The notes beneath the pieces were generated by a model. The model made no database searches. It was not told the origin of the DNA and saw nothing but the letters and a program-made list of their open reading frames with translations. Positions 35,386-52,139 of a stretch of DNA of 64,000 nt are shown piece after piece (position 1 is the first letter of the stretch; every line of letters begins with the position of its first letter). This stretch comes from Onthophagus taurus (lineage: Eukaryota > Arthropoda > Insecta > Coleoptera > Scarabaeidae). The position numbers were made by a program, and so were the translations under genes. The DNA lies in contig NC_091971.1 in the NCBI RefSeq assembly GCF_036711975.1, forward strand, positions 27,163,501-27,227,500. The letters run 5' to 3'.

Positions 35386-35453
35386 AGAAACACTGCAAAG
35401 TTGAGAATTGTTTGTCAAGAATTCTAAAATTGGACACAAGTCAACCCAAACCA

Positions 35454-35868
35454 AGTAGGTATAAAACAAGGCTATCTCTGACGTCAGAGGTAGCCGTAGT
35501 CAAGGACACCCTTCCCCCTCCACCTCCCGGCTTCCAGCCGACAAGGTTGCCCTCTAGCGGCGGGTAGCTGAACTACACGCACGTCATCAACGCCGCCGTC
35601 GCCGCCGCCGTCGCCGCCGCCGTCGCCGCCGCCGTACCGACGCCGCTGGCGCGCGGGTTCGCGGTGCCGGATGGGCTGGTGCCGCGCGGAACGGGTTGGG
35701 CGGGTGCGGGGCGGTTGGTTGCCATACTAAATTTTTTGTTTATATAAATATAAACAACTGACGTCGTTGACCGCAAAGATTGTGTTATTGCATAATAAGG
35801 AACTGTTGCGGTTACGCCAATGATAATAATAATCTACAAAGAATTTCCGATCGTTTGTTCGGATGCGG
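35454..35868. repeat. Left terminal inverted repeat of the Polinton
   Basis: It matches the reverse complement of 51727-52139 with very few differences as far as about 35868. Recognisably similar but diverged sequence continues for another 100 bases or so. The middle part is strongly GC-rich and carries a gccgccgtc trinucleotide tract at about 35588-35635, unlike anything else in the element. It contains a 67-codon frame repeated in both copies, which I do not consider a gene. Confidence 0.9.
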
Positions 35869-36012
35869 TGTCATTAAGTGAGACAAAAACATCGTTGGAG
35901 AGTAGTGTACGCATGCCTGAACATGAAGAAGGATTTTGTTTGTAGGATATTCAGTGAATAAAGGAAAAAAAGAATTAGTTTGTTGATTAACGTTCAATAC
36001 GTCGGTAGTACA

Positions 36013-36750
36013 ATGGAACATGAAGCGTTGGAATCATCAAATTTTATAAGTAATTTGCTTATGGATTTCGAGCGACAAATAGCGGAAGAGTATGAATTAA
36101 TAAATGAAAAGCGATATGATCTCCCTCATTCGTTGAGTATTGGTACGGGTATCAGTTTAGCGCGCGGTGGATATCCTGTTGTGAAAATAGCTGCAAACAG
36201 TAAAAGAAAATGCATTCAATTGACATCGTACGAATGGGATAAATTTTGGGAAATACATGAATCTAAGGCAGATCAACATTTACTTCAAAGAAAAAAGTGT
36301 TCTTCATGTAGTGATGTAATCGAGCAAACTGATTGTAAAGAAGTGCAATTAAGCACTTACTTAAATATATTTTATGGTTGCAAAAACACTAACCTTAAAA
36401 ATCATAGAAAAATTATAAGGATACAATCTCATGGAACGGAATTAGTACTTCATTCAACAAGTTATAAAAATCTTAAGCAACTTCGTGAAACAATTACTAT
36501 GCGATTACAAAGACTACATTTGATGAATTTCCCTATATATTACACTAATTTAATACAATCTATCCTAACCAATCAATTTCAAGGCGAGAGTATGGCGGAC
36601 TATATAAAAAGAATGTCAAGTCTTACTCCCTCACTCACTCCTTTTGAGGAATTGGAGTATCGAGAGTGTGCGCTCGAGATAATTACGCTAGTTCCGGATC
36701 AAATAAAGTCTGCTATAGGTGCTTTGAAAGCGGGTGATGTTTTCAAATGA
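36013..36750 (+). CDS. Uncharacterised Polinton protein next to the left repeat
   Basis: The protein is 245 aa from the first ATG in frame; the open frame reaches back a further 11 codons without one. No domain is recognised. Visible features: an acidic N-terminus (MEHEALESSNFISNLLMDFE), a four-cysteine motif with CSSCSDVIEQTDC near residue 98, and a predicted helical C-terminal half. A second frame (36737-36976) overlaps its end by 14 nt in the +1 frame and reads as a natural continuation. The two could therefore be one ancestral protein separated by a single-base change. Function unknown. Confidence 0.6.
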   Translation: MEHEALESSNFISNLLMDFERQIAEEYELINEKRYDLPHSLSIGTGISLARGGYPVVKIAANSKRKCIQLTSYEWDKFWEIHESKADQHLLQRKKCSSCSDVIEQTDCKEVQLSTYLNIFYGCKNTNLKNHRKIIRIQSHGTELVLHSTSYKNLKQLRETITMRLQRLHLMNFPIYYTNLIQSILTNQFQGESMADYIKRMSSLTPSLTPFEELEYRECALEIITLVPDQIKSAIGALKAGDVFK

Positions 36751-36976
36751 AGACTTCGTCTATATCATAGATAAGAAACATAATTTTGTAACATGTAAGG
36801 AATTGGAGAGCATTTGGTGTAAACTTTCACCAGAGAAGCAAGAAAAATTGAAATATCATTTACCCTGTTACAAACATTATAATGTTGGTGGTGGGGGTGA
36901 TGAAATAGACGGACCTCCAATCTCTATAACAAAGTGTAGTGTATGTGTTGAGAAGTGTGATATATGCACATATTAA
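36737..36976 (+). CDS. Small Polinton protein overlapping the first gene
   Basis: About 80 aa: FVYIIDKKHNFVTCKELESI, then SPEKQEKLKYHLPCYKHYNV, a glycine patch, and CSVCVEKCDIC at the C-terminus (a possible metal site). It lies in the +1 frame relative to the preceding gene and overlaps it by 14 nt. Either it is a separate small gene or the detached C-terminus of its neighbour. I see no canonical +1 frameshift site at the junction. Confidence 0.45.
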   Translation: MFSNEDFVYIIDKKHNFVTCKELESIWCKLSPEKQEKLKYHLPCYKHYNVGGGGDEIDGPPISITKCSVCVEKCDICTY

Positions 36977-37004
36977 TTGTTTGAACGTTGTCGCGAGAAG
37001 AATA

Positions 37005-37430
37005 ATGAATTTCACCATATTTTACACAGTAATGCAAAGTACACTACTCATCAAAGCACCTCAAACTACAAAAGAGGTATCAATTAGTTTCGATCCGGAT
37101 TACACAAGAAAAGATCTAGATATAAAGTGGTTACCCATGAAGCAGATGATGGAGGAAGATGTATTTTCTATTATACCAAATTGTTCGCGTGAATCCATTA
37201 TTACATTTAAAGCCAAATTCACTTTGGAAGATAATAGTATTATAACCAGTAAATGGATTTCGGTATTATACGATATAGATTTAATTTCAATATGTTATAA
37301 TAATATTGCGATAGTTATATTTGCTTCAATAATAATATTAATAGGAATTACATATAGTTGCATACTTTTATTTAATAATATTTATGAAAGTTGTATACAA
37401 TTTGGTGTGATAATATTAAGCTGTGTATAA
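37005..37430 (+). CDS. Uncharacterised Polinton membrane protein
   Basis: 141 aa from the first ATG of the frame. The N-terminal 95 residues or so are soluble-looking, with a beta-rich pattern (EVSISFDPDYTRKDLDIKWL, ESIITFKAKFTLEDNSI). They are followed by a strong transmembrane segment at about residues 100-128 (IAIVIFASIIILIGI, YSCILLF). No signal peptide is obvious. A single C-terminal anchor suggests an envelope- or membrane-associated role, but I recognise no family. It ends 64 bases from the convergent integrase gene. Confidence 0.55.
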   Translation: MNFTIFYTVMQSTLLIKAPQTTKEVSISFDPDYTRKDLDIKWLPMKQMMEEDVFSIIPNCSRESIITFKAKFTLEDNSIITSKWISVLYDIDLISICYNNIAIVIFASIIILIGITYSCILLFNNIYESCIQFGVIILSCV

Positions 37431-37494
37431 AAAGTAGGATAAATAAAGAACTTGATGAAAATTATCATATTTTATTTTATTGTTTTCGATTTAA

Positions 37495-38427
37495 TTACAC
37501 AACATCATTTTTATTAATCCAGCTATTATGTGAAGAAGGAAACCCTAACCATTTAACGTAGGCTTTATTTTTCGATCGTTTAAGTATTCGTTCAATAAGA
37601 TACACGTCCTTGAACTTAGTAGCTTGAAGTTCATGTTCATAAAAAGCACCCAAAATGGGATTATTTTCCATATCATTAAGCAGATAAGTAGGAGGATTTG
37701 TCATTTGAACTTTTCTTATTTTAAATAATTCCATACTCCAATTAGCTGTATACCCTTTTTCAAATAAAGATTTATGTTTACTAATACGAACCACCTGACC
37801 TACAATAAATTTCCCCACCCCAGCAATCTTTAGTTGAGTATATGCGCTATTTAACACTCGATCTACGTTTTCCCTGTTAACTTTAGAAGGAGCTAGACCT
37901 ATGGTTCGATGCTTTGTATTGTTGTAGTGCTTAGTCACGTCTTGAAGTATATTAATCCAAACTTGGTTGCCCCTATACAGAAACGTTTTCTGTAATTTTT
38001 CTTTGAGCGTTCTAATGACTCGTTCAGCCATTGCTGCTTTCATGGTGGTAAATGTGGAATAATGGTTTATGTTATGTTTATCAAGCAATTTTTTTAGTTC
38101 TACATTATAGAATTCTTTTCCTGCATCAGTTTGAAAATTTTTCGGAATCCTTTTATCTTCAGAAAAAATGCTGCTTAATGCTATTCGTACATCTTTACCT
38201 GTCTTAGTCTTTAAAGCTCTAGTCCAGAGATATTTTGAAAAACAATCAACAACAATCAATATATATTTATGGTTCTTATTGCTCTTAGCATGTGCTGACA
38301 TGTCAGCCAAATCCGCTTGCCATAAATCATCTAATCCTTTAACAATTGTTCGTCGTCTTGGAAAACGTTTCCTGGATGGTTTATGTAACTCTTCGATTAT
38401 TTGCTTTCTTATGTCGATCTCATTCAT
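37495..38427 (-). CDS. Polinton retroviral-type integrase with chromodomain
   Basis: 310 aa. Catalytic core: first aspartate in LWQADLADMSAHAKS (about residue 39), second in FQTDAGKEF (about 100), glutamate in AERVIRTLKEKLQ (about 134). A C-terminal chromodomain follows at about 272-310 (VYLIERILKRSKNKAYVKWL, SWINKNDVV). It joins the linear DNA to the host chromosome; the 6-bp duplication is its footprint. The length and domain order are those of Polinton integrases, and the frame is intact. It is last in the leftward block ATPase, 359-aa protein, fibre-like protein, integrase. Confidence 0.93.
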   Translation of the reverse strand: MNEIDIRKQIIEELHKPSRKRFPRRRTIVKGLDDLWQADLADMSAHAKSNKNHKYILIVVDCFSKYLWTRALKTKTGKDVRIALSSIFSEDKRIPKNFQTDAGKEFYNVELKKLLDKHNINHYSTFTTMKAAMAERVIRTLKEKLQKTFLYRGNQVWINILQDVTKHYNNTKHRTIGLAPSKVNRENVDRVLNSAYTQLKIAGVGKFIVGQVVRISKHKSLFEKGYTANWSMELFKIRKVQMTNPPTYLLNDMENNPILGAFYEHELQATKFKDVYLIERILKRSKNKAYVKWLGFPSSHNSWINKNDVV

Positions 38428-38513
38428 GTTAATACAATAAAAGTACTTAATATAATGATAATTTTGTTAAATAAGCAGCCTTTTTTATTCGATTAGGTTA
38501 TATTTCAATCAAT

Positions 38514-39095
38514 CTAAATTATTAAATTAAGTTCGGTAGCTATGAGTGAAAAAGATTTTTCCATGCGTAATTTTAATTCATTGGTTGTATTTGAAATATT
38601 TTTAAGTTCATAGGCTACGTCTGATATTTTCGAAATAACATCAAGCATTTTATCATCCTGTTTATCTTTTATATATTCTTGAATAGAGGGTTCGCTATCT
38701 TTCAAATTCTGCTTCAATGTATTCGTTAGATTCGAAATAGTCTTTCCCATATCTAATTTTAATTGATTATGTTTTTCTGTTAACTCATTTATTTTCACAA
38801 TTTCTTCATTGAGAAAATCAGTAGCTTTATTTAAATCACGAAAACCATTATCGTATATACGAAATACGTTATTGCAACGGGAAATTTCGCTTTTAAGACG
38901 ATAATTTACTTTTCGAGCAAGTTTATCAACATAATCTTTTGTTGCAACATCATTCTCGTTAAGAGGATTGGATACATTACATATACGTTTGTTTTCTCCG
39001 TTTACATCTCCATCGTTCGTAATACCCATATGAAATCCTACATTGTGATATACAATTTGTACAGTGTTTTCATGAAAGTTTCCGAATTTATCCAT
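38514..39095 (-). CDS. Coiled-coil, fibre-like Polinton protein
   Basis: 193 aa. The N-terminal part contains ICNVSNPLNENDVATKDYVD. Its N-P-x-N-x-x-D-V/A-A-T-K-x-Y-V-D pattern is the repeat found at the shaft of phage tail-fibre and other trimeric attachment proteins. The rest is almost entirely heptad-like coiled coil (about residues 55-190). The start codon follows the stop of the upstream gene by one base, so the two are likely expressed together. A capsid-attached fibre or spike is my inference; no receptor-binding head is visible. Confidence 0.6.
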   Translation of the reverse strand: MDKFGNFHENTVQIVYHNVGFHMGITNDGDVNGENKRICNVSNPLNENDVATKDYVDKLARKVNYRLKSEISRCNNVFRIYDNGFRDLNKATDFLNEEIVKINELTEKHNQLKLDMGKTISNLTNTLKQNLKDSEPSIQEYIKDKQDDKMLDVISKISDVAYELKNISNTTNELKLRMEKSFSLIATELNLII

Positions 39096-39096
39096 T

Positions 39097-40176
39097 TCAA
39101 TAAATGATGTTTGCTTCTTTTAGTTCTTCTATTATAGATACAATTTCGTTATTATGAGATGTATTACCAGCTTGTTGAGAACTAACTAATAATCGCAGTC
39201 TATCTACAAGTTCATTTATATCATCAAAATATACGTATTGATAGGGTCTAGTATCTCCAGCTATTAAATTTAAAGATGAGGAGCTATGTCCGAATCCAAT
39301 TCGTGAACTGATTGCTGTTGCCGTCGACTTAGTTCTTTTACGAGAAGTGCGAGGCGTGCTGTCTCCTCCTTGACTATCAATCATCCGCTTTATAATGTTT
39401 CTATATTTAAATGATTTGTTACCCTTTATTTGCTCATTAGGATTATTATTACGTTTATGAGCATTTGTATCATTCAATATCTCTTGGTATTTATTCATAT
39501 CATTTTCGCTATACTCCATAGGAATTTTTTTAAACAGCAATTCATATAGACCAGCAGTTCCTTTGTATTTCTTTTTAGTGGTATCAATAATTATATCGCC
39601 ATTAGCATCAAACGTAACATTACTATTTCCAATGCTCCATGACTCAACGACCGGATCATGTACAATACCAAATGTTGGATCATGAAAGTCTTCCTTCCCT
39701 GTTAATAAACCATGTATATACTTTCTAGGTAGTTCATGATATTGTTCAAGATATTCATTCGTTGATTCATGCGATATTTTCATTGGCTCCTCTTGTTTTC
39801 TTTCATCTGTTGAAGATAAGAAATATTCGGGTTCGTACGTGAATATTTCATCGCTCGCTTGAAGAGGTGAAATTGTCGGTTGAGTTTTATTTTGATTCAA
39901 CGGTTCTGTTTTAAGTGGTAGCGGCTTAACGTCCTTCGTTTCAGTTGGCTCCGTTTTAGGATGTTTTTTAAGCGTTTCAATTAACGTATCCAGAGGTTTA
40001 ACTATTGGTTTATTGATACGTTCTAATTCTTTTTCTTGTCCTTCTTTACCAACTTTAATGGCTAAATATTTACGTCGAATAGCATCGCTGAGATGAATTA
40101 TATCTGAATTCAATTTATCAGATTTTTTTGTTTTTAATGTCCTTTTAGGATGTAGCCGTTTCGTAGGTTTTTCCAT
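39097..40176 (-). CDS. Polinton protein with a DUF8207-like region
   Basis: 359 aa. The N-terminus is basic, with a long disordered, lysine/proline-rich linker (about residues 1-130). Next comes a conserved block near 165-230 (SWSIGNSNVTFDANGDIIID, YKGTAGLYELLFKKIP), a second basic stretch (TPRTSRKRTKSTATA), and the C-terminal YVYFDDINELVDRLRLLVSS ending in IEELKEANII. This combination is common in insect Polinton-borne proteins and, to my knowledge, is catalogued only as a domain of unknown function. Its place between the ATPase and the fibre-like gene suggests a virion role. Confidence 0.65.
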   Translation of the reverse strand: MEKPTKRLHPKRTLKTKKSDKLNSDIIHLSDAIRRKYLAIKVGKEGQEKELERINKPIVKPLDTLIETLKKHPKTEPTETKDVKPLPLKTEPLNQNKTQPTISPLQASDEIFTYEPEYFLSSTDERKQEEPMKISHESTNEYLEQYHELPRKYIHGLLTGKEDFHDPTFGIVHDPVVESWSIGNSNVTFDANGDIIIDTTKKKYKGTAGLYELLFKKIPMEYSENDMNKYQEILNDTNAHKRNNNPNEQIKGNKSFKYRNIIKRMIDSQGGDSTPRTSRKRTKSTATAISSRIGFGHSSSSLNLIAGDTRPYQYVYFDDINELVDRLRLLVSSQQAGNTSHNNEIVSIIEELKEANIIY

Positions 40177-40197
40177 GACTACACGAGCTATTTTTAT

Positions 40198-40893
40198 TTA
40201 TAACAATATATACTCATCGAATTTGAATTTATAGCGTCCGTCTTTTATATCTCTATCTTTATCGATAACGAGAAATCCGTATTTATTTTTCCAGCATAGA
40301 TTACACATGGAATGAAAATCTTCAAATCTCATATCCGGATCAACGTGATTAAGGAATACATGTTTAAGATTGCAGGCGTCTTGTTTAAATAAAATCATTA
40401 AATTAACATTATCTCGAATTAATTGTTTAGGTACTTTGGAATACGATTGAGCTAAATAAAAACTATCAACAGAGTTATGTCTCCCCATGGAATAGAACTG
40501 TTGAATTATTTTCTGGTTGCTAAGGGAAACATCATCGAAAATAAAGACTGAATTAGGTAACGCCTTATTCGGTTCAATTACTTCATCATTCTCTTTATAG
40601 GGAAAGTATCTTACGCCTTTCACTGCATTTAAAATATGTTCCAAAAACTTATACTTTGGTTGATATAGCGATTTTGAATAAACGTATACATTTTCAAACT
40701 TTAAACCATTAGGATCGAAAAGAAGGGATAGCATTACATTAGTTTTTCCACAATTACTAGGTCCTGCTATTATCGCTCGTATAGTGTTCGGTAACTGTTC
40801 TCCGTGACGTCTAGCTAACAACGAATTTTTTACTACTACTCGATCATCGATGTCGTGTACTTCAATTTTGTTTTTTACTTTTATAAGGCGCAT
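40198..40893 (-). CDS. Genome-packaging ATPase (A32-like, FtsK/HerA superfamily)
   Basis: 231 aa. The Walker A motif is AGPSNCGKTNVM at about residues 43-54. Walker B is SVFIFDDVSL near 117-126, followed by the conserved MGRHNSVDSFYLAQSYSKVP. Length and motif spacing match the packaging ATPases of Polintons and adintovirus-like elements, which pump DNA into preformed capsids. It is the first gene of the leftward block. A TATA-like catataaag lies immediately upstream of the ATG, and only 48 bases separate it from the divergent PLA2-like gene. Confidence 0.93.
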   Translation of the reverse strand: MRLIKVKNKIEVHDIDDRVVVKNSLLARRHGEQLPNTIRAIIAGPSNCGKTNVMLSLLFDPNGLKFENVYVYSKSLYQPKYKFLEHILNAVKGVRYFPYKENDEVIEPNKALPNSVFIFDDVSLSNQKIIQQFYSMGRHNSVDSFYLAQSYSKVPKQLIRDNVNLMILFKQDACNLKHVFLNHVDPDMRFEDFHSMCNLCWKNKYGFLVIDKDRDIKDGRYKFKFDEYILL

Positions 40894-40941
40894 CTTTATA
40901 TGGCTACATGAGCTTAGTCACTAGTTGCAGAATAAGAGAAA

Positions 40942-41859
40942 ATGAAATTTATATATGCGTATTACGGTGTTCTTCATGTTAGTATAATGACTAGAGACAT
41001 CGAGGGAGGAGGTGTATTTAATTCCTTTATAAACAAATTACCAATAGAATTACACATTCCGGGTTATCAGTATTGCGGTCCCGGTACAAAACTCGCCAAG
41101 CGATTAACTCGTGGAGATCCCGGAATTAATTCTCTTGATAAAGCTTGCAAAAAACACGATATCGCCTATTCGCAGAATAAAGATTTACATACACGACACG
41201 AAGCCGATAAGATATTAGAAGAGAAAGCGTGGAATAGGGTACTAGATAAAAATTCAAGTGTTGGAGAAAAAATAAGCGCTTGGCTTGTAACTAGCGGTAT
41301 GAAAACAAAAAGGAAATTAGGATTAGGTATGAAGGAGTATAAACGAAGAAGGAGAGGGCTACATAAAAATGGAGGCTCTGTTGCTTTTAATTCAAACGTA
41401 TTGAAACCAATCAAAATTAAATTAAAATCGAAAAATTTCTCTAATGAAAATTTAAATAAGTATGCGAAATATGCATTGGGTATAGCAAAAAAGACGGTAA
41501 AAAATGTTGGTGGTAAGAAAAAGATCCGCACACCTCGTATTATAGCAATTCCCTCCGTCAATGGTAGTGGTATCGCTAGTAAATCAGGAGGTTTTCTACC
41601 ATTTCTCGTACCTTTATTTGCTGGTTTGTCGGCCGCCGGTGCACTCGCATCCGGTGTAAGCAATGTCGTCAAAGCAGTAAAAGATGTGAGAGCAGCTAAA
41701 GAAAAATTTATCGAAGACCGACGGCATAACAAGGAAATGGAAGCGATAGCAATCGGAAAACAAAAATCCGGTCAAGGTCTTTTTCTAAAACCATATCGCA
41801 AAGGATTGGGTTTATTTTTAGGAAACAAAAAATCAAAAAACTCTCGCAGACGCCCTTAA
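40942..41859 (+). CDS. PLA2-like capsid-associated protein (zero-frame product)
   Basis: The frame opens at 40942, but the ATG at 40987 (MTRDIEGGGVFNSF) gives the more usual N-terminus, 290 aa. A phospholipase-A2-like domain follows: calcium-loop motif YQYCGPGTKLAKR and the catalytic pair in CKKHDIAYSQNKD, about 30 residues apart as in parvovirus VP1 and Polinton PLA2 domains. The C-terminal half is very basic (KEYKRRRRG, GGKKKIRTPRI). It has a glycine/alanine-rich hydrophobic segment (FLPFLVPLFAGLSAAGALAS) and an arginine-rich tail. A role in membrane passage during entry is inferred from the family. The last codons contain a -1 frameshift signal into the protease. Confidence 0.85.
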   Translation: MKFIYAYYGVLHVSIMTRDIEGGGVFNSFINKLPIELHIPGYQYCGPGTKLAKRLTRGDPGINSLDKACKKHDIAYSQNKDLHTRHEADKILEEKAWNRVLDKNSSVGEKISAWLVTSGMKTKRKLGLGMKEYKRRRRGLHKNGGSVAFNSNVLKPIKIKLKSKNFSNENLNKYAKYALGIAKKTVKNVGGKKKIRTPRIIAIPSVNGSGIASKSGGFLPFLVPLFAGLSAAGALASGVSNVVKAVKDVRAAKEKFIEDRRHNKEMEAIAIGKQKSGQGLFLKPYRKGLGLFLGNKKSKNSRRRP

Positions 41860-41887
41860 CGGATGATATTATTATGCGTTATGGGCG
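41835..41887 (+). promoter_or_regulatory. Candidate -1 frameshift signal joining PLA2-like protein to protease
   Basis: The heptamer AAAAAAC at 41835-41841 is in register with the zero frame as A AAA AAC. A 9-nt spacer (41842-41850) follows. Then CGCCC (41851-41855) pairs with GGGCG (41883-41887), and TAACG (41857-41861) with CGTTA (41877-41881). One T-T mismatch separates the helices and the loop is 15 nt. The zero-frame TAA (41857-41859) lies within the stem. The -1 frame leads straight into the protease frame, which stays open from the slip site. Confidence 0.65.
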
Positions 41888-42200
41888 AGAAAACATACCT
41901 AATTTTAGAGGAGTGTACATGCGTGATACATTACCTAAAAAACCGCTTAAAAAGGAATGTGCAGTAGTTAATTTAGATTCAATTCAAGGATCTGGCACGC
42001 ATTGGGTTGCATATTATAAGAATAATAATTTAGTGCAATATTTTGATAGTTTTGGTAACCTAACGCCTCCTAAAGAACTTCTAAATTACTTTGGACCCAA
42101 TACAAAACTATTTTATAATCATAAGAGATATCAAAAATTTAATGCAGTCAACTGTGGACATTTATGTTTAGATTTTTTAGAGAAAGTACATTTAAAATAA
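41874..42200 (+). CDS. Adenain-like cysteine protease (capsid maturation)
   Basis: 108 aa from the ATG at 41874. Conserved blocks: IPNFRGVYMRDTLPKKP, then the catalytic histidine in GTHWVAYYKN, the aspartate in YFDSFGNLTPP, and the nucleophile in NCGHLCLDFL. The size is near the family norm (110-130 aa). The residues encoded just upstream in the same frame (PLTDDII) also look like the family's N-terminal helix, yet no ATG precedes them. The protein may therefore be made as a -1 extension of the PLA2-like protein, or start internally. It should cleave capsid precursors. Confidence 0.88.
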   Translation: MRYGRENIPNFRGVYMRDTLPKKPLKKECAVVNLDSIQGSGTHWVAYYKNNNLVQYFDSFGNLTPPKELLNYFGPNTKLFYNHKRYQKFNAVNCGHLCLDFLEKVHLK

Positions 42201-42224
42201 GACCGTGATGAATGATCATTAGTC

Positions 42225-42941
42225 ATGTCTTGTACATTCACGTTGCGAGGCAGGAAGAATATCCTTTCAGCCGATTATTATCCTCCTCTAGAATTGGAGG
42301 AAACATCGGAGTACGCATTAGGCTTGATAGGTCTATTTACGTACAGTAGTATTCCAAATATCGAGACGGGATGTAATAAAATATACTATGGAGGTAAAGG
42401 AGAATTTATCGAAATACCTACAGGTTCATATGAAATAAAAAACATAAATGATTACGTGCGAGAACAATTACTTAAAAAGACTAATAAACAGGATACGGAT
42501 GAAGATCCTTTTATTAGCATTAAACCGAACCATAATACGTTGAAGTGTGTAATTATTTCTAAAACGGAAATAGATTTTACTAAATCAGATAGCATTGGAT
42601 CAATGTTGGGCTTTAGCAGTAAAATAATAAAACCGGGAGTAATGAGCGAGTCTGATCAACCAATACAAATAATCAGAGTATCAAGTATACGCCTCGAGTG
42701 CAATATCATAACGAGTGCTTTTTACGATAACGAGAGATCGCACACCTTGTTCGAATTTTCACCTCAAGTTGCTCCAGGTTATGCTATAAATATAGAACCA
42801 AAAAACATTGTTTATTTACCTATAAGCAGTCGTAGAACGATCAGCAACATAACCTTGTCTATTATCGATCAAAACGGTAAACCTGTGAATTTTCGCGGTG
42901 AGGAAATAGTTGTTAGACTTGAATTGAAGCGAATTTTATAA
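42225..42941 (+). CDS. Minor capsid (penton) protein, single jelly roll
   Basis: 238 aa, intact. It begins MSCTFTLRGRKNILSADYYP and has the beta-rich layout of Polinton minor capsid proteins (LEETSEYALGLIGLFTYSS, FIEIPTGSYEIKNINDYV, SIGSMLGFSSKII). It ends ISRRTISN-like followed by VNFRGEEIVVRLEL. The characteristic hydrophobic IEIPTGSYEI and LGFS motifs support the call. It should form the fivefold vertices. It sits 24 bases after the protease and just before the 54-aa gene and the major capsid gene. Confidence 0.85.
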   Translation: MSCTFTLRGRKNILSADYYPPLELEETSEYALGLIGLFTYSSIPNIETGCNKIYYGGKGEFIEIPTGSYEIKNINDYVREQLLKKTNKQDTDEDPFISIKPNHNTLKCVIISKTEIDFTKSDSIGSMLGFSSKIIKPGVMSESDQPIQIIRVSSIRLECNIITSAFYDNERSHTLFEFSPQVAPGYAINIEPKNIVYLPISSRRTISNITLSIIDQNGKPVNFRGEEIVVRLELKRIL

Positions 42942-42949
42942 AAAAGAAA

Positions 42950-43114
42950 ATGGGATTAGTATTCAATTCATCATCTTGCGGATATAAAAACGTGATAAAA
43001 CATCGTGGAACTATAATTGGTGCCGGGTTGTCTACCAAACAACATCAACGTTTAACCAACGAAAATAAATTGTTTTTAAAATCGCTTGGATTTAAAATTA
43101 AAGCCCAAAAATGA
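42950..43114 (+). CDS. 54-aa basic Polinton protein
   Basis: A short gene between the two capsid genes: MGLVFNSSSCGY, then GAGLSTKQHQRLTNENKLFL and KSLGFKIKAQK. It is basic and soluble. The conserved-looking L-T-x-x-N-K-x-F-L-K-x-L-G-F tail recurs, as I recall, in small ORFs of other insect Polintons. Its TGA stop overlaps the start of the major capsid gene (ATGA at 43111-43114), so translation of the two may be coupled. Confidence 0.6.
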   Translation: MGLVFNSSSCGYKNVIKHRGTIIGAGLSTKQHQRLTNENKLFLKSLGFKIKAQK

Positions 43115-44340
43115 GTGCCGAAATTTTAAATGTGTACGATGCAGCAATATTTGATGATAGTTTATCGAGTGAAGAATATCATACATATCTACCTCGCATA
43201 CAATCATTCAATGCGAGTGATGAAATTAGAATACCAATAAACCATCAAGATATATACACATATCCCCACGATAGCTATATTTTTATTCAGGGGAAAATAG
43301 AAGAAACGCCTGCTGTTGGAGGAACTGGAGATGTTCAACTAGTTAACAATGCTTTTTTATTTCTATTCGATGAAATACGATACGAGATAAATGGTGTTGA
43401 AATAGATAGAAACATAAAACCAGGAATTACATCAACGATAAAGGGATACATTTCCTATAGCGATAATGAAAGTAAAGCGCTGCAATCAGCAGGATGGATT
43501 CCTAAACCGCAAAATAAACAACCAACGTTTATTACTCCTCATTTCACTGCTTGTATACCTTTAAACTTTATCTTAGGATTTGCTGAAGATTATAAAAAAA
43601 TCATTATTAATGCTAGACAGGAGCTAGTATTATTAAGAGCTCGAAATGATGATAATTGCTATAAAAATAGTTTAAAAAATGGTACGAAAGAAATGAAAAT
43701 ATACCTCACCAATGTCTATTGGAGAATACGACATATAACTGTAAATGATAAACATCGTTTACAATTATTAAATGCTCTTAATAAGGATATGCCTATATTG
43801 TTACCGTTCCGAAAATGGGAATTGTTTGAATTACCTTCTCTACGTCCTACAAAGAAAGATATTTGGTCTGTAAAATCGAGTACTAGCTTGGAAAGACCTC
43901 GATATGTTATAATTGCATTTCAATCTAAAACAAAAGACGATGCTACTTTTGATTCATCCGATTTTCAGCATGCCAACATGAATAATATTAAATTACACCT
44001 AAACTCTTCTCATTATCCATACGATAATTTGAATTTATCCATGATTCAAAAACGTTATGGAAACGCCTACAATATGTATACAAGCTTCAGAAAAAGCTAT
44101 TATGGGGGAAATAAAATTGGAGAACCACTACTGGATTTTAATCAATTTCATGATATACCGCTTTTCGTTATAGATTGCTCCAAACAACTGGAAAGTATAA
44201 AATCCTCTACAGTTGACATTAAACTAGATTTGGAGAGCGATGTTGCATTTAATGATAATATTTCTGCGTTCTGTCTCATAATTCATGATACTATCATACA
44301 GTATAGACCGTTAACAGGTTTAGTACAAAAAATTATTTAG
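43111..44340 (+). CDS. Major capsid protein, double jelly roll
   Basis: 409 aa, no interruption. The N-terminus MSAEILNVYDAAIFDD and the stretch YLPRIQSFNASDEIRIPI are typical of insect Polinton major capsids. Further hallmarks are FLFDEIRYEINGVEIDRN, HFTACIPLNFILGFAEDYKK, VYWRIRHITVND, and the C-terminal IPLFVIDCSKQLESIK with a final strand ending FCLIIHDTIIQY. It should form trimeric capsomers of an icosahedral shell. The open capsid genes contrast with the damaged polymerase. Confidence 0.92.
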   Translation: MSAEILNVYDAAIFDDSLSSEEYHTYLPRIQSFNASDEIRIPINHQDIYTYPHDSYIFIQGKIEETPAVGGTGDVQLVNNAFLFLFDEIRYEINGVEIDRNIKPGITSTIKGYISYSDNESKALQSAGWIPKPQNKQPTFITPHFTACIPLNFILGFAEDYKKIIINARQELVLLRARNDDNCYKNSLKNGTKEMKIYLTNVYWRIRHITVNDKHRLQLLNALNKDMPILLPFRKWELFELPSLRPTKKDIWSVKSSTSLERPRYVIIAFQSKTKDDATFDSSDFQHANMNNIKLHLNSSHYPYDNLNLSMIQKRYGNAYNMYTSFRKSYYGGNKIGEPLLDFNQFHDIPLFVIDCSKQLESIKSSTVDIKLDLESDVAFNDNISAFCLIIHDTIIQYRPLTGLVQKII

Positions 44341-44344
44341 AAAA

Positions 44345-45160
44345 ATGATTATTAAATTTTTATTATGTATCTGCTGCTACTGGTGCTACATTCACGCTGA
44401 ACATTTTAATCTAACTTACTTTAAAAATGGATCTAGTTCGCTTACTCATAATGTTCGAAACCGCAACAGTCAGATTCAACTGGAAGTAGCACCATTTTCC
44501 AGTGAAATGCTTAATTTAAAAACGGTAAAAAAAAAGAAAAAAAATCCTGTCAACATCGGTGAGAATAATTCATTAACTTCAATAACTTTAAAGCCTACGG
44601 AAACACCGATAACGACAATATTTCCATTAACTTTAAAACCCTACAAAACAACGCTAACAGGTTTAAAACCTTCTGCAACTGTAATATCTCATAAAACGGA
44701 AGCTAATGAAAGCGTGAACTGCATGAATGATTTAAAAGATTGTAAATTATGGAATAAGGACCTGGATGCGAGATATGTAAGATTATCGTTAATGGCTCAT
44801 AGAGATCTTACAGATTTAGAAGAATGTCGTGAGAATGTAAAAAATTTGGATTCAATTCAGAAAATAGCAACATTAAAAGAAGCGCTCGATGAAAAGTTGC
44901 AGGAAATTATTGAAATAAGACAAGATTTGGCAAATTGTATGGCTCAAAATTCAGGTTTACGGTTGGAAATATCTATGTGGGCTAGTAAGTGTGAACAAGA
45001 AGTGTTGCCTAAACCGCAACTTCAGGTTGCAGCGAATGCGATATCTACAATTAGCCCTGAATGTAGTTGGCATTGTTCTTCATGCGAACAAGAAACAAGA
45101 AGGCTAAAATCTAAATTAAATACATGTAATTCAATAATTTTAAGAGAAGGAGGGAAATGA
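44345..45160 (+). CDS. Secreted coiled-coil protein, uncharacterised
   Basis: 271 aa. A hydrophobic N-terminus (MIIKFLLCICCYWCYIHA) looks like a signal peptide with cleavage near residue 18. A threonine-rich stretch follows at about 75-118 (TLKPTETPITTIFPLTL), which could be heavily O-glycosylated. Next are an even coiled coil at about 150-205 and cysteines at the C-terminus (CSWHCSSCEQETRRL). I recognise no family. A secreted or virion-surface protein encoded directly after the major capsid is unusual for a Polinton. Its stop overlaps the next start codon (ATGA at 45157-45160). Confidence 0.6.
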   Translation: MIIKFLLCICCYWCYIHAEHFNLTYFKNGSSSLTHNVRNRNSQIQLEVAPFSSEMLNLKTVKKKKKNPVNIGENNSLTSITLKPTETPITTIFPLTLKPYKTTLTGLKPSATVISHKTEANESVNCMNDLKDCKLWNKDLDARYVRLSLMAHRDLTDLEECRENVKNLDSIQKIATLKEALDEKLQEIIEIRQDLANCMAQNSGLRLEISMWASKCEQEVLPKPQLQVAANAISTISPECSWHCSSCEQETRRLKSKLNTCNSIILREGGK

Positions 45161-45825
45161 GTAGGAAGGTCAAGTTTTGTCGAAGTGTAACCGTTCATGA
45201 AATCGAATTAGTTGATATCGAGATTCCTAGCTGGGAACAAGCAGCCAGAGATAGAGCAAGATTTTTGAAGCGAATTAAAGAAACAGAGGAATTGATATCT
45301 CCAATTCTAAAACATTCACATCGTTTGAAAATTATGGCATCACGAAATCCAATAAAAATCATCGATATGCAGGGCTTTACTCTATTATCAGGGTTTCGGG
45401 TAAAAGAATTAGCTATAAGTGATGGTTACTCGATTTCCCATTTCCTTTTTCAAGCGGACGTAGCTCATGAAAAGCTTAATAAACGCGAACGACGACAGAT
45501 TGCTTGGGAACAAAACAACTTACATCATTTAAACTATGACTATGGATATGTAGCCTACAATCGACTTAGAGAAATTCTGCTCGAGCATACATGTGAAGCG
45601 GAGGTGATATTTGTAAAGGGTTCGCAAAAGGAAACGGTGTTACGGGATTTACTACCAGAGACAAAAACTGTAATTATTAATTTACAGGATAATTTAAATT
45701 GTCCATTACTTTCAACATCGCAAAATAGTTGTGTATATCATAATAATTCATTTAGTAATTGCGCAATTGAAAATGTAAAGTTAATTTCAAAATTTTTAAA
45801 ATTAGATTTGAATAAATTAAACTAA
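45157..45825 (+). CDS. Polinton protein, possibly RNase-H-fold exonuclease-like
   Basis: 222 aa. A basic, helical N-terminus leads to IKIIDMQGFTLLSGFRVKEL and YSISHFLFQ, then LNYDYGYVAYNRLREIL and VIFVKGSQKETVLRDLL. The C-terminus has a cysteine-rich pattern: NCPLLSTSQNSCVYHNNS and NCAIENVKLIS. Similar D-x-Q-G-F...K-E...V-K-G...C-A...N-V proteins occur in insect genomes and, as far as I recall, have been compared with DEDD exonucleases. I cannot show a full catalytic set, so the activity is speculative. It overlaps the preceding gene by 4 nt and is convergent with the spliced gene that follows. Confidence 0.55.
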   Translation: MSRKVKFCRSVTVHEIELVDIEIPSWEQAARDRARFLKRIKETEELISPILKHSHRLKIMASRNPIKIIDMQGFTLLSGFRVKELAISDGYSISHFLFQADVAHEKLNKRERRQIAWEQNNLHHLNYDYGYVAYNRLREILLEHTCEAEVIFVKGSQKETVLRDLLPETKTVIINLQDNLNCPLLSTSQNSCVYHNNSFSNCAIENVKLISKFLKLDLNKLN

Positions 45826-45887
45826 GAAGAAATGTTAAAGTGTACATGTAAGTAAATATAATAAAAAACAATAAAAATTAATTTTTT

Positions 45888-46816
45888 TTATTTTTTCTCT
45901 AAAATTTTATACATTTTTTCGTTTAAATCAACGATTTTTTCTAAAATATTGATCATCGTCTTATTTTCCGATAACGATTTTTGGGGGGCTTTTTCCAATC
46001 CTCTAGGGGCATAACAGCGGGAAGATCTGGGTGTTTCCAACGGGATTAGTGTTGGAGGGGGTGCCACTCTTTCATATCGATGGGAATGTCCCCATGCTTG
46101 TCGGGTAGATCTAGGTGTTTCCAACGGGATTAGTGTTGGAGGCGATGCCACTCTTTCGTATCGATGGGGATGTTCCCATGCTTGTTGTATATCCGATATG
46201 CCCCGCGCATAGTCCTCATCATGACCATTAATTGCGATGAGCTCCTCATCATCCATTACCTCACCTTTCGAGCGAGGTGAGGGTGACCTAGGACTATCAC
46301 TCTCCTGCCAAGTTGCTATGAGTAAAAAGCAGAAAATATAATTTATTAAAGAGAAAAGAATTAAAAAAGAAAAAATTAAGTACTTACTTTCAAAAGCATC
46401 GCTGGATTCTTTCGCTACATCTTTCGAGTGAGGTGAGGGCGACTTGAGGTTCTCGTTTTCCTCCCAAGCCACTACGAAAAAAAATAAATAAATAAAAAGG
46501 TAGGAATTAAATAAGAATAAATTAATTACTTTCAAAGCCATCGCCGACTTCTTTCTTCACACCCCCAACATGTTCTTGCGTAGGATGACGGGATTTTTCC
46601 CGTCTCCGTACCATTTCTATGATCTCACACCACTTAACATCGCATTTCGCATCTAATTATGAGACAGTAATAGTAAAACAATAATAAACTCTTAAAAATA
46701 AATAAACATTTACATGTGTACTACTTACCGTCCACCACCTTGCAATCGGAACCGAAAATTTCGATTTCCGTTGCTCCATCATCACGTTCATTAATATAAA
46801 GAATATATTTTGGCAT
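45888..46816 (-). CDS. Four-exon Polinton gene with duplicated exon and duplicated 28-aa block
   Basis: Exons on the minus strand: 46816-46729, 46652-46530, 46471-46388 and 46315-45888. The introns (76, 58 and 72 nt) begin GTAAGT, GTAATT and GTAAGT and end in TAG. All are phase 1, and the spliced frame is open for 240 codons. Exon 1 opens MPKYILYINERDDGATEIEI. The SPSPHSKD part of exon 3 and the SPSPRSKG start of exon 4 are copies of each other, each after a W-x-E motif. Exon 4 then carries two 28-residue repeats (HPHRYERVASPPTLIPLETP and HSHRYERVAPPPTLIPLETP) and ends in a short coiled coil. A TATA-like box lies about 70 nt upstream. Function unknown; the proline/serine-rich repeats suggest a disordered interaction region. 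Confidence 0.65.
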
Positions 46817-46883
46817 TTTGAATCGTTACGGTAGCACAATACGGTAAGAGAACAAACTATGAGAAACGGTAAACGATCAGGCG

Positions 46884-46891
46884 TATTTATA
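46884..46891 (-). promoter_or_regulatory. TATA-like box of the spliced gene
   Basis: TATAAATA on the minus strand, about 68-75 nt upstream of the ATG at 46816. It is well placed for a start site some 40 nt before the codon. Confidence 0.4.
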
Positions 46892-46904
46892 TGAAGTTCA
46901 TATC

Positions 46905-47560
46905 ATTTGAGGTGCAACGGTTTTTTTTTTCAAATAATTTTTTTCTTCACCGCATGAGGAAAATTTGCAACCATCGCGTCTGTGGTTCAACATATTTTTT
47001 TTTAGCAAAACGATAGACATTTCCTCTTCTGCGGTGTCATGTAGGTTTACAAAATCCTTGATAGTTGCTGGCATTACGTAAGAGGAAAATATTTCTTACG
47101 TATCTATCACGTATGTGGTTCAACGATTTTTTTAAAAACGATTGAAACTTCCACTTTTGTGGTGTCTTGCATGTTTACAAAATCTTAGATAGGTGCAATC
47201 GTTTTTCCTCGCCACGGTTTTCCGCTTTAACATAATTACACAAACGAAAAATGTTTTTTTCCAACAACCGTGCGGTTCAACAGATTTTTAAAACGATAGA
47301 AATTTCCTATTTTACAAAAAGATTAATTTCTAATTAATTCGAAAAAATTTTGTTATATGTGGTCCAACGGATTTTTTTTTAAACAATAGAAACTTCCTCT
47401 TCTGCGGTGTCATGCAAGTTTACAAAATCTTTGATAGTTGCTATCATTTTTTCTTGCCACACTCTTCCGTTTTAATTCAATTATCCCAACAAATTTTTTT
47501 TGCGTGTGCGGTCCAACGGATTTTGAATCGCAAAATGAGGTTTTTTAAATTAGAACTATC
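46905..47560. repeat. Noncoding repeat block between two Polinton genes
   Basis: About 650 bases without a supportable gene. A unit recurs at roughly 46985, 47110, 47270 and 47360. It contains the ordered motifs gtggttcaac, an A/T run, aacgatagaaa, cttcctcttctgcggtgtcatg and gtttacaaaatc. The copies are diverged and unevenly spaced. Position and composition suit a control region for the two divergent genes on either side; an origin is also conceivable. Confidence 0.5.
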
Positions 47561-47577
47561 TAATCCAAATAATTTCC

Positions 47578-47585
47578 TATATAAA
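47578..47585 (+). promoter_or_regulatory. TATA-like box before the 162-aa gene
   Basis: TATATAAA, about 75 nt upstream of the ATG at 47657, mirroring the arrangement of the divergent spliced gene. Confidence 0.35.
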
Positions 47586-47656
47586 CGCTGCAGCCTAGAG
47601 GATTTATCATTTGTCGAATATCACTACACGAGTTCACATTACAAATATTATTCACG

Positions 47657-48145
47657 ATGCCTAAATTTTTAAAAAAAAAAACTTCGTTAGTTCCTACATC
47701 TTTTCCTACTAAAACAGTTAAAAAGTGTAAAACCAAGCATCCCCTTTCGGGAAGCGATAAGGAAGACGAAAAAGAATTGGCTATCTCCGACAGCAGTTCA
47801 AGCTCCTCTTCAACTAGAGATAACATATTTGATGCAGAATTAAAAGCTGCTAACGTGTCGGTTTACGAAAGGAAGCCAAAAATATCGTGTATGGAATTCA
47901 AGATTGGGGAAATACATCCAATAGTTACTTTAAAGCAATTGTTTAATGCAAAATATCCGACTCTATTGGCGGAGCTGAACGAGAACATTGTCTTTCTTCC
48001 GGAAAGGTATTTATATCAAGTCAGCAATCAGTTTGTTGAGATGGTTAATTCGGGGGAACATCCCCAAATTGGTTTGACGTTAGTCAATCGTAAATTTGTA
48101 GGGAAAGACATGCTTTTACATGAATTTGAATTCATAAAAGTTTAA
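47657..48145 (+). CDS. Uncharacterised 162-aa Polinton protein
   Basis: The N-terminal third is basic then acidic and disordered (KKKTSLVPTSFPTKTVKKCK, DKEDEKELAISDSSSSSSST), a possible phosphorylated linker. Residues 75-162 look folded: ISCMEFKIGEIHPIVTLKQL, LPERYLYQVSNQFVEMVN, NRKFVGKDMLLHEFEFI. I do not recognise the family. It is read in the same direction as, and 83 bases before, the polymerase gene, so a role in replication, such as a terminal or accessory protein, is possible but unsupported. Confidence 0.5.
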   Translation: MPKFLKKKTSLVPTSFPTKTVKKCKTKHPLSGSDKEDEKELAISDSSSSSSSTRDNIFDAELKAANVSVYERKPKISCMEFKIGEIHPIVTLKQLFNAKYPTLLAELNENIVFLPERYLYQVSNQFVEMVNSGEHPQIGLTLVNRKFVGKDMLLHEFEFIKV

Positions 48146-48228
48146 AAATTTTTTTTAACTTAGGTATATTTAGATGCTTAAATTAGAATAGATTAATAGA
48201 GTTTACACCTAGATATAGTTAGATCATA

Positions 48229-51200
48229 ATGGAAATTGTAACAATTGAAACTGTTAAAACAACTAGAAAGTTATTGAATCTCTGTAGATCTGAGGATGAA
48301 TTTAAAAGATTACAAAAATTAAACAGAGGAAATATTCGATTACTAACTAAGCTTTTACGTACTAAAAATGGAGGAATAGGGGTTAAGAGGCATTATCAAT
48401 CAATCTTATGCGATCTACAACAAATACACTTAAAAATTGTAAATAGTTTAAAAGTAGTGAAAGGGGTTAAATATGGGAAAGGATTACATAAGAAACGCAG
48501 CGATCGGATTAGATGGCAAGACATAACTTCCGCTTTTCAATCTCGTGTTCGAACTGGAGCTATCATCAATTTAGTGCACAAAGAGCCCAAAACATTTTTA
48601 GATGATTGCATATTTCTTATAAAATCCAGAGTACAAAATGTATTAAAACGTGAAATGTCCGGGATAAAGATGAACTTAGAACTTTCCGCTAATTTCATCA
48701 TTCCTACAAGCGGAGAAGAAGATGTTAAATATTTTAATACATCCAACGCTGTAGTATTGCAGTCTTCTTCCATTACTACTATATTGAAGGGTTTCAATGA
48801 GGATATATGTAATCAGGCAAGTACTTTTTACATTTCTAAACATTCATCTATTTATTTTTTATTTATTTCTTCTTTGTAATTATTTAGATGGGGGAGTTCG
48901 CTGAACGCAATTCCGGATGGTCATTCGTTTCAATTAACTATTTATTGGTATGTATCAATAAATATTCTCCGTTACTAGCAGGAACCTATATTCCACTACC
49001 TCCGAAATTATCAACACGGAAAAAAGGCGTCATTCTCAATATACGTAATAATGATAATCTATGCTTCATATATTGTATACTGGCGGGTTTGTATAAAATG
49101 TATTCATGCGAAATGAATTCTTATTCGAATTTTAATATCGAAAAAATGTTTAATCTAAACGGAATTGAATTTCCGATTACATTAACAGATATTTCTAAGT
49201 TCGAAAAACTAAATCCAACAATTTCTGTTAACGTTTTTGGATTCAATGATGAACTAGATTTAATAGGCCCCTATTTTCATACAAAACAGGTAAAAGAAAA
49301 TCATTTTAATTTATTAATTCTAGAAAGTAACAGCTTACATCATTATTGTTTAATACATGATTTATCTGCTCTATTATATAAAAAAATTACTAAAGATAAG
49401 ACTAAACTATATATATATGTGATCGTTGTCTTAATCATTTTAATAAACAAATTCTATTGGAAAAACATTCCTTAAATTGTATGAATCATAAAGTTGTCAA
49501 GATTACTCTCCCTGAGAAACGTATTTTACAATTTCAAAATTTTACGGCACTAATCGGCACAAATTTTAAGGCACTAATCAGAAAGCCATTCGTAATATAC
49601 GCAGATTTTGAATCATTACTCAAAAAAATTGATGGTTGTCCTAATACAGATACAAAATCATATACGTTGAATTATCAATTACATGAAGCTTGCAGTGTAG
49701 CATTTAATATCGTTTGTTCATATAATAATAGCTACAATAGCTTTAAATTGTATCGAGGAAAAAATCCTCAAATATGGTTTATAGATCAATTAGAGCAACT
49801 TAGCCGAGAACTTCATTTAATTTTAAAAGCTAGTACTACAAATATCATAAAGAAACTGACTCCAACTGAAATATCTATATATCATTCCACATATAACTAT
49901 CCTGTATGCCATTGCGAATTTTCCGTTGCAAATCCTAAAGTTCGACATCATGATCATTTCACAGGAAATTTCATTTCTCCTCTTTGTATGAACTGTAACT
50001 TACAAATTAAACTGGATTATAGTATACCGATTTTTTTTCATAATTTTAGTGGTTACGATATACATCTCTTCGTTTTAGATCTTGTTGAAAAGTATGATGT
50101 CAGCATTATTCCGATCAATCATGAAACATACATTTCTTTATCGGTTAAAATCAATCAAATTAAATTTATATTTCTAGATAGTTATAGATTTATGGCAGCC
50201 TCATTAAATGAGCTTGTATCCAATCTCAAACCGGAGCAATTAATTCATAGCAAATTTCATTTCCCTAATCCCGATCTATTCAAGTTAATTACACGCAAAG
50301 GTATTTATCCTTATGATTATATTGATCATTTCGATAAATTTAAAGAAACTTGCTTGCCTGAAAAACAACATTTCTTTTCATTACTCACAAAGGAGAGCAT
50401 ATCTGACGATAACTATTCACATGCAATCAACGTTTGGAATTCATTCAATTGTGAAACATTAGGTGATTATTCAGACATATATTTAAAAACGGATGTTCTT
50501 CTTCTATCGGATGTATTCGAAAATTTTAGGAATTTAACAATGACTCATTATGGATTAGATGCCGCTGCGTTTTATACCGCTCCAGGTTTAAGTTGGGCTG
50601 CTTCTTTGAAATATACTCATGTACAATTAGAACTGCTTCAAGATATAGATATGATTTTATTTATAGAAAAGGGAATTAGAGGAGGCATCACTCAATCTAT
50701 TCATCGATATGCAAAAGCAAACAACCCTTACGTTCCTAATAGTTACGATGGAGATCCCTTTCATACATATTTAATGTATTGGGATGCAACTAATTTGTAT
50801 GGCTGGGCACAGAGTCAATATATACCGATTAATGAATTTAGCTGGGTAAGCGATATGAATTTTGATGTGTTAAATGTCTCCAACGATTCTGAATATGGCT
50901 ATATCGTAGAAGCAGATTTAATTGTACCCAGAGAATTGCATGACTTCTATAGTGACTTTCCGCTACTATCTGAACATATGAAACCTCCGAATTCCTCGGT
51001 TTTGAAACTACTTTGCACTCTTTATAATAAAACTTCTTACATCATTCATTACATAAATTTAAAACAAGCAGTAAATTTAGGTATTAAACTAGGTAAAATA
51101 CATCGTATTTTAAAATTCAAACAATCTCCATGGTTAAAAAAATTTATTGATTTAAATACCGACTTACGAATGAAGGCGAATAATGAATTTGATAAAAGCT

Positions 51201-51565
51201 TTTTTAAATTAATTATTAATGCTCATTTTGGGAAAACTATGGAAATCGTTTTTAATAAGCCTATTTACATAGGCTATTAAAAGGCTATTTACATAGGCTT
51301 ATTACGTAAGGTGAAAGGTATTGGTAAAGTTGCTTCGAATACTTTGACTTTTAATGATTTTGTAGATGTACTTTTTAATGATGAAGTAAAATTAGCTAAT
51401 TTTAATACAATTCGAACTAAAAATCATAAATTATATTCTATGAATGTGAATAAAATTGCATTAAACAGTAATGATGATAAGCGCTACATATCCCCCGATT
51501 CCTCCATAGTTACGCGACCATGGGGACATTTTAAAAATAATGAGAATATGTATTTTAACTCGTAA
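48229..51565 (+). pseudogene. polB: Protein-primed DNA polymerase B, broken, with one GC-AG intron
   Basis: 48229-48816 is the N-terminal part (WQDITSAFQSRVRTGAIIN). An intron at 48817-48887 with donor CAG/GCAAGT keeps the frame into 48888 (FAERNSGWSFVSINYLLV, NNDNLCFIYCILAGL). A 2-nt length change in the TA run at about 49405-49420 shifts the frame. From 49430 onward the exonuclease motifs are legible: YADFESLL, HNFSGYDIHLF and YSDIYLKTD. So are a zinc/HNH-like insert (CHCEFSVANP, RHHDHFTG, CMNCN), motif A (DATNLYGWAQSQ) and motif B (LIINAHFGKTME). After that two internal deletions remove motif C (the YxDTDS box), a TAA follows at 51278-51280, and only the C-terminal block remains (VNKIALNSNDDKRYI). 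It cannot be active. Confidence 0.85.
48817..48887 (+). other. GC-AG intron in the polymerase gene
   Basis: 71 nt, CAG|GCAAGT...TTTAG|ATG. The donor is the textbook strong GC form. Splicing here keeps the polymerase frame, whereas the GT at 48821 and the GT at 48809 would not. Confidence 0.6.
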
Positions 51566-51726
51566 TTTGTTTTTCATTTTATCAATATATTATATTAATT
51601 AAAACTAATTCTTTCTTTCTTTATTTAATGAATATCCTGCAAACAAAAATCCTTCTCCTTGTTCAAGCATGCGCATATTACTCTCCAATGAATTTTGGAT
51701 TCTCACTTACTCGTTTAATGACGTCG

Positions 51727-52139
51727 CATCCGAACAAACGATCGGAAATTCTTTGTAGATTATTATTATCATTGGCGTAACCGCAACAGTTCCTTATTAT
51801 GCAATAACACAATCTTTGCGGTCAACGACGTCAGTTGTTTATATTTATATAAACAAAAAATTTAGTATGGCAACCAACCGCCCCGCACCCGCCCAACCCG
51901 TTCCGCGCGGCACCAGCCCATCCGGCACCGCGAACCCGCGCGCCAGCGGCGTCGGTACGGCGGCGGCGACGGCGGCGGCGACGGCGGCGGCGACGGCGGC
52001 GTTGATGACGTGCGTGTAGTTCAGCTACCCGCCGCTAGAGGGCAACCTTGTCGGCTGGAAGCCGGGGAGGTGGAGGGGGAAGGGTGTCCTTGACTACGGC
52101 TACCTCTGACGTCAGAGATAGCCTTGTTTTATACCTACT
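51727..52139. repeat. Right terminal inverted repeat of the Polinton
   Basis: Inverted copy of 35454-35868, ending ACCTACT at 52139, followed by the AAACCA duplication. The inner 100 bases or so (51610-51726) continue as a diverged version of the left end, showing that the repeat was once longer. Confidence 0.9.

Follow-up and report, generated by a model that had tools for sequence, protein, structure and literature searches.

Most familiar examples of programmed ribosomal frameshifting come from RNA viruses and retroelements. In the gag-pro arrangement of retroviruses (MMTV, BLV, HTLV), the protease is a −1 extension of a structural protein, and the slippery heptamer A AAA AAC stands closely before the stop codon. 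The same heptamer is reported to be one of the most shift-prone sequences on mammalian ribosomes (PMC5009743), and the slip site of HIV-1 is described as U UUU UUA (PMC4373837). For adintoviruses, a 2024 preprint contains KnotInFrame predictions of frameshifts at the ends of Penton genes and of potential Hexon-Adenain (Hexain) fusions (PMC11071296). Work on moth Mavericks treats CAP (PLA2) and PRO as two distinct ORFs (PMC5803895). For vertebrate Mavericks, the gene order given has the protease following the major capsid gene (PMC8097293), so the junction discussed below may be an insect-type feature. In adenoviruses, the C-terminal peptide of pVI is described as an activator of the protease adenain (PMC8537868).

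The window analysed here, a stretch of 64,000 nucleotides from the beetle Onthophagus taurus, contains a Polinton in which a PLA2-like gene and an adenain-like protease gene meet in different frames. We read this junction as a programmed −1 ribosomal frameshift signal, with a probability of roughly 0.9. It behaves as a conserved −1 frameshift signal in every sequence test run in this one genome, and protein-level signs of it appear in other beetles. The first-pass annotation knew of no frameshifting between these two Polinton genes. No description of it was found in the literature searched, which did not extend to the original adintovirus paper of Starrett et al. (2021), and the nearest case is that of the predicted Hexon-Adenain fusions in the relevant section of the preprint (PMC11071296).

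The Polinton and its junction

The Polinton that carries the junction occupies positions 35454–52139 of the window and is bounded by terminal inverted repeats at 35454–35882 and 51710–52139. It encodes an integrase, a packaging ATPase, a double-jelly-roll capsid protein and DNA polymerase B, the gene content of a Polinton/Maverick (adintovirus-like) element. The DNA polymerase B region (48229–51280, forward strand) is split over several ORFs in this copy, with a DNA_pol_B_2 match only at 49457–51280. The forward-strand ORF 45157–45825 exceeds the Pfam cut-off in its match to PF10488 (E = 2e-6), the binding region for the PP1 catalytic subunit, as in PPP1R15/GADD34-like proteins. The reverse-strand ORF 38514–39095 has a weak match to the phage T7 tail fibre N-terminal domain (E = 8.1e-5, below the Pfam cut-off) and perhaps encodes a fibre-like protein.

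The zero-frame gene of the junction (40942–41859, forward strand) encodes 305 amino acids, with a PLA2-like domain at residues 36–111 (PF08398, E = 2.2e-14) and a basic C-terminal segment, and ends with TAA at 41857–41859. For this protein, structure prediction reached only low confidence (mean pLDDT 63). Behind the slip site, the −1 frame (41841–42200, forward strand) comprises 119 codons from CTC at 41841–41843 to the stop codon at 42198–42200, and its product is adenain-like by profile and fold. A profile of 30 sequences matched the adenovirus protease 1avp with E = 6.2e-5, and the top Foldseek matches were the adenovirus protease structures 4wx4 and 1nln; the window protease alone scored under the Pfam cut-off for Peptidase C5 (15.8 vs 21.3 bits). 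Residues H55, D70, Q99 and C106 are invariant in the 30 sequences, and we take them to be the catalytic residues, with roles as in adenain. Fold, profile and catalytic residues together indicate an adenain-type cysteine protease (Peptidase C5). The model of the protease (30 sequences, mean pLDDT 93) has a helix at residues 9–19 and the first strand at residues 23–28. The first Met of the window protease is residue 13, in agreement with the earlier suggestion that the residues encoded ahead of the first ATG suit the N-terminal helix of the family; the Met of the FRGVxM motif, the first Met in lineages B and E (see below), is residue 28.

Read from its start at 40942, the PLA2-like ORF passes through the codons TCA (41833), AAA (41836) and AAC (41839), which places the heptamer A AAA AAC at 41835–41841 (forward strand) in phase with the zero frame. 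The −1 frame is without a stop from 41730, 108 nt upstream of 41838, to 42198–42200, and overlaps the zero frame at 41730–41859 (forward strand). Its first ATG, at 41874, lies 17 nt beyond the first base of the zero-frame stop codon. A 9-nt spacer (41842–41850) leads to a hairpin (41851–41887) that contains both this stop codon and the first −1 ATG. In the stem, CGCCC (41851–41855) pairs with GGGCG (41883–41887) and TAACG (41857–41861) with CGTTA (41877–41881), T41856 and T41882 remain unpaired, and the TAA at 41857–41859 sits within the paired region. The first-pass annotation had described a PLA2-like gene ending in this heptamer, a −1 frame open from there into the protease, and a hairpin with one T-T mismatch and the stop codon in its stem after exactly 9 nt; sequence and pairing confirm each of these elements. 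Folding bears out the hairpin as a strong one: 71 nt at the junction fold with −19.5 kcal/mol (z = −4.0; as good in 0 of 200 shuffles), with an extra inner 5-bp helix predicted inside the hairpin.

Over 45 nt, the lineage A junction gives −19.5 with z = −6.6 (100 shuffles), and only 30 of 18,274 sampled 45-nt stretches of the window reach −19.5 or lower. The window contains 29 AAAAAAC sites on both strands; the stretch behind the junction copy folds at −19.5 kcal/mol, and the runner-up reaches −8.3 kcal/mol. Among 1016 X XXY YYZ heptamers in the window, one other comes near, CCCAAAC at 35445 (−19.0), shortly ahead of the left terminal repeat. The zero frame also contains G GGT TTA in phase at 41808–41814 (forward strand); the −1 frame is open from there too, and this heptamer could act instead of A AAA AAC or in addition to it. 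An in-phase A AAA AAC also occurs at 42800–42806 (forward strand), within an ORF 3′ of the protease (42225–42941) that has no match in Pfam; it was rejected as another shift site and is taken as a chance occurrence, since the −1 frame behind it closes after 11 residues.

Copies of the junction in the Onthophagus taurus genome

The DNA-level comparison covered one genome of 290.8 Mb. Among 261 candidates, 150 protease places were scored, and 131 of them were examined together with two more (133 places); the frames of the zero-frame protein and the protease were determined at each place by tblastn with nine lineage queries. The protease lies in the −1 frame relative to the zero frame in 127 of the 133 places, and all nine query lineages show this relation. 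The six exceptions comprise three places with both proteins in the same frame (L050, L063, L070), one with a +1 relation (L047) and two with no frame call (L028, L009). In L063 (the same place as L011), the slip run has one extra A, and the C-terminal segment and the protease form one frame of 231 codons. L047, L050 and L070 contain runs or stops resembling decay, L070 with an in-phase heptamer still at the junction.

As in the window, a strict heptamer stands in phase within the measured overlap of the two frames in 120 of the 127 copies (84 A AAA AAC and 36 T TTT TTA). In five of the other seven (L013, L087, L079, L139, L146), a strict heptamer is found behind an early stop of the upstream frame, giving 125 of 127 if such stops are ignored, and in L046 and L076 the heptamer is lost. 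Copies within a lineage are related and not independent; the set includes 39 distinct 90-nt junctions.

The genome carries several diverged Polinton lineages, and the slip site is not uniform among them, being A AAA AAC in most lineages and T TTT TTA in lineage C. In lineage A, that of the window, 15 nt separate A AAA AAC from the zero-frame stop. In the B group, whose protease is about 52–62% identical to that of the window, A AAA AAC is followed by one codon and then TAA or TAG, and in lineages D and E (56–57% and 48–49% identity, respectively) it stands directly before TAA. In lineage C (48–52% identity), 39–48 nt separate T TTT TTA from the stop. Viral contigs were scanned with the protease, the protease alignment, the PLA2-protein alignment, the capsid protein, the ATPase and a PolB piece, and genome contigs with the protease alignment; neither search returned a relative with the junction. 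The ATPase scan of viral contigs gave one 29% match (L151).

RNA structure was surveyed in 13 representatives at three lengths (39 folds, 100 shuffles each; pseudoknots are outside the model). No stem common to all lineages was found in these folds, and no covarying stem was found among related copies, because the lineage A copies are nearly identical in the hairpin. Lineage E has a different 8-bp stem located 8 nt behind the heptamer, whose two arms are separated by 63 nt (−28.7 over 100 nt, z = −4.6). Values of z = −2.6 over 100 nt were obtained for L075 of the B group and z = −2.5 over 70 nt for L010 of lineage C, where the stem is yet 19 nt away, and the remaining representatives lie between −1.8 and +1.6. 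A structure about 5–9 nt downstream of the slip site is present in the window (9 nt, z = −6.6) and not across all lineages; the strong hairpin is a trait of lineage A, not of the whole family, and structure is weak or absent outside lineages A and E. The comparison of related Polintons proposed in the first-pass annotation speaks in favour of the shift, with the frame offset (127/133) and the heptamer (120/127) kept; a covarying, family-wide hairpin was not found.

The fusion of a PLA2-like protein to the protease, as originally proposed, applies to the window, but PLA2 is not the constant partner. In lineage C the zero-frame protein, counted from its own ATG, is 145 residues long; it aligns to residues 143–304 of the window protein and has no Pfam match to PLA2. 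Since lineage C keeps the frameshift arrangement despite lacking this domain, the partner common to the lineages is the basic C-terminal segment with its RHN and GLYLKPYKKGLG motifs. Close to the shortened gene of lineage C, a PLA2-like stretch is found on the other strand (L010, L012–L015, L017–L020), as if the PLA2 domain had become a separate gene. In the zero-frame protein of lineage E (L077–L079 and others), a C-terminal Lys-Pro-Tyr-Lys motif is repeated before the Lys-Asn end.

The contribution of chance was estimated with a synonymous-codon null, in which the amino acids were kept and codons were drawn from these genes. Under this null, the strict heptamer has P of 0.08–0.16 per lineage, with a product of 1.75e-5 over five deep lineages. 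Any X XXY YYZ has P of 0.26–0.85 per lineage, the tails being rich in Lys, so that a loosely defined heptamer is common by chance and proves nothing. Asn is encoded in these genes by AAT 63 times and by AAC 27 times. Chance as a general cause was rejected on this null, the fold background and the −1 position of the protease at 127 of the 133 places.

Protein ends in other sources and rival explanations

Homologues of the zero-frame protein were represented by the best 120 of 1799, three of which belong to this beetle or the window, leaving 117 from other sources. Among these matches listed, 114 of 117 end in Lys-Asn (KN) plus 0–5 residues: 32 with none, 61 with one, 20 with two and one with five. 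Also among the matches listed, the linker from a GLGLYL-like motif to the KN end measures 1–16 residues, and internal KN occurs at 0.0059 per position. A terminal KN is what AAA AAC near a stop codon would give. The residue (or stop) after KN fits a codon beginning with T in 105 of the 114 listed, versus 30 of 180 after internal KN; such a T codes for Leu in the −1 frame and yields KKL, a sequence seen at the DNA level in lineages B, D and E. Beetle records with KN ends among the matches listed come from Exocentrus (P0159, P0227), Molorchus (P0174), Aromia (P0190) and Ignelater (P0216), and one further listed Exocentrus record (P0173) is without it.

With the lineage C query (best 120 of 612 homologues), a KN end was found in 35 of 38 listed matches with a PLA2 domain vs 36 of 81 without. 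The coding trace that would be expected from T TTT TTA is xFL; among the matches in both lists, it occurs in 37 of 51 proteins without terminal KN vs 41 of the other 185, with p = 5e-11, a value that overstates the case because the listed proteins are related to one another. Neither trace is present in 14 of the 236 listed, including Popillia P0291. Judged by these protein ends, the same frameshift is probably present in other beetles, and terminal KN or xFL may serve as an annotation signature for the upstream protein.

An in-frame fusion as the usual state was rejected, as 0 of the 120 listed zero-frame homologues contain the HW motif of the protease. The single-frame exceptions are L063 and the listed protease prediction P0088, which begins with the C-terminal motif of the zero-frame protein in the same frame. 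Among 119 listed protease predictions from other sources, 77 begin 13–25 residues before FRGV (28 with MLP), 28 later still and 14 further upstream; in four of the last group (P0060, P0062, P0075, P0091), KKL is found shortly before LPxR. Gene callers accept GTG and TTG, so these predicted starts may be non-ATG; an ATG-based separate start of the protease may also exist in other species.

Transcriptional slippage, with an extra base inserted by RNA polymerase within the A or T run so that some mRNAs encode a single-frame fusion, would yield nearly the same product. Runs of 6–7 A or 7 T are present at the site in nearly all copies, and the DNA of L063, with its one more A, does read as such a fusion. 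Polymerase slippage, however, needs neither the codon phase of the heptamer nor the C after the A run, and both are kept, which favours the ribosome. Only six A are found in three lineages, and the KN ending in 114 of 117 listed homologues indicates the same phase. We consider this explanation improbable.

Still less probable, in our estimate, is independent synthesis of the protease through re-initiation, leaky scanning or a non-AUG start codon. The position of the window's ATG at 41874, so soon after the zero-frame stop, suits this explanation, as do the 77 of 119 listed predictions from other sources that begin near LPxRPL. Against it, no ATG precedes FRGV in 86 of 126 copies (the motif was not located in L113); in the 40 copies that have one, it lies inside the first helix region in 39 and at −15 in L013, 5 nt past the T TTT TTA of that copy. 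The first-pass annotation had named an upstream protease ATG in relatives as evidence against a shift, and a −1 ATG upstream of the heptamer occurs in 0 of the 120 copies with a heptamer in the measured overlap. The conserved residues ahead of the first ATG are, moreover, under selection: across 20 alignment columns, reaching from a little ahead of PLT to FRGV, pN/pS is below 1 in 36 of 36 lineage pairs (0.24–0.82). This stretch is therefore translated, and where there is no ATG it can be supplied only by a shift or an unusual start. Separate initiation also leaves the in-phase heptamers and the KN endings without a reason. A conserved arrangement under selection is thus found within one genome, with the protein ends in other sources beside it.

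A decay indel or assembly error separating the two frames of a dead element is hardly credible, for although the DNA polymerase B region of this copy is divided among several ORFs and stops or indels occur in copies such as L046, L047, L048, L050 and L076, the −1 relation recurs at 127 of the 133 places and in all nine query lineages, with 34 places in lineage E alone, and this refutes decay as a general explanation.

Proposed mechanism and known systems

Under programmed −1 frameshifting, most ribosomes would produce the zero-frame minor virion protein (PLA2-like domain and basic C-terminal segment) and stop at the TAA at 41857. A minority would slip by −1 on A AAA AAC, aided in lineage A by the hairpin, and produce a fusion of 300 + 119 residues. 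O. taurus Polintons seem to make the protease only by this one-base slip-back at the end of the minor capsid gene, which would account for a protease ORF without a usable start codon in this genome. From the sequences we infer the slippage itself, its rate, packaging, self-cleavage and the cofactor role, and likewise the tethering of the protease to a membrane-active capsid component. The shift would keep the protease in a constant, low proportion to this component, the protease would enter the particle as its tail, and it would later free itself by self-cleavage. Within the fusion it would sit beside the C-terminal segment, placed where adenovirus pVI has its protease-activating peptide. The frameshift suggests in this way a route of the protease into the particle, held beside a possible activator, and would add a translation-level sign of virion building by these elements.

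For a wider group of hosts, we lean towards a more general view. In beetle, and perhaps most insect, Polintons, the only form of the protease would be a −1 frameshift product attached to a pVI-like minor capsid protein. Such a fusion would be the DNA-virus equivalent of Gag-Pro, metering and packaging the protease with its activating segment in cis. During evolution one slip site would have replaced the other (A AAA AAC close to the stop, T TTT TTA further upstream at the GLGxFL motif), with the frame offset kept. Frameshifting appears in this light as a standing rule in a group of DNA virus-like transposons.

The junctions of lineages B, D and E resemble retroviral gag-pro in having A AAA AAC and then a stop close by, and differ from it in that gag-pro belongs to RNA viruses, with an aspartic protease and unrelated genes. 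HIV-1 gag-pol shares its heptamer with lineage C, U UUU UUA with a stem-loop (PMC4373837); the genes are unrelated, and no strong nearby stem was found in lineage C. The insect Maverick CAP and PRO are the same two genes as here, and the passages describing them do not mention a frameshift between them (PMC5803895). The adintovirus Penton and Hexain predictions concern the same virus group and a −1 shift, in one case involving the protease, but they are one-sentence predictions with other upstream genes, and a PLA2 or C-terminal-segment partner does not appear in that section of the preprint (PMC11071296). By position and character, the C-terminal segment recalls adenovirus pVI, where an adenain-type protease likewise stands beside a minor capsid protein with an activating C-terminal peptide; unlike the arrangement proposed here, the pVI peptide is cut out and joined by a disulfide bond, and the part of the source dealing with it describes no frameshift fusion (PMC8537868). 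The mechanism, −1 frameshifting, is already known, and it is its form at this Polinton junction that is new.
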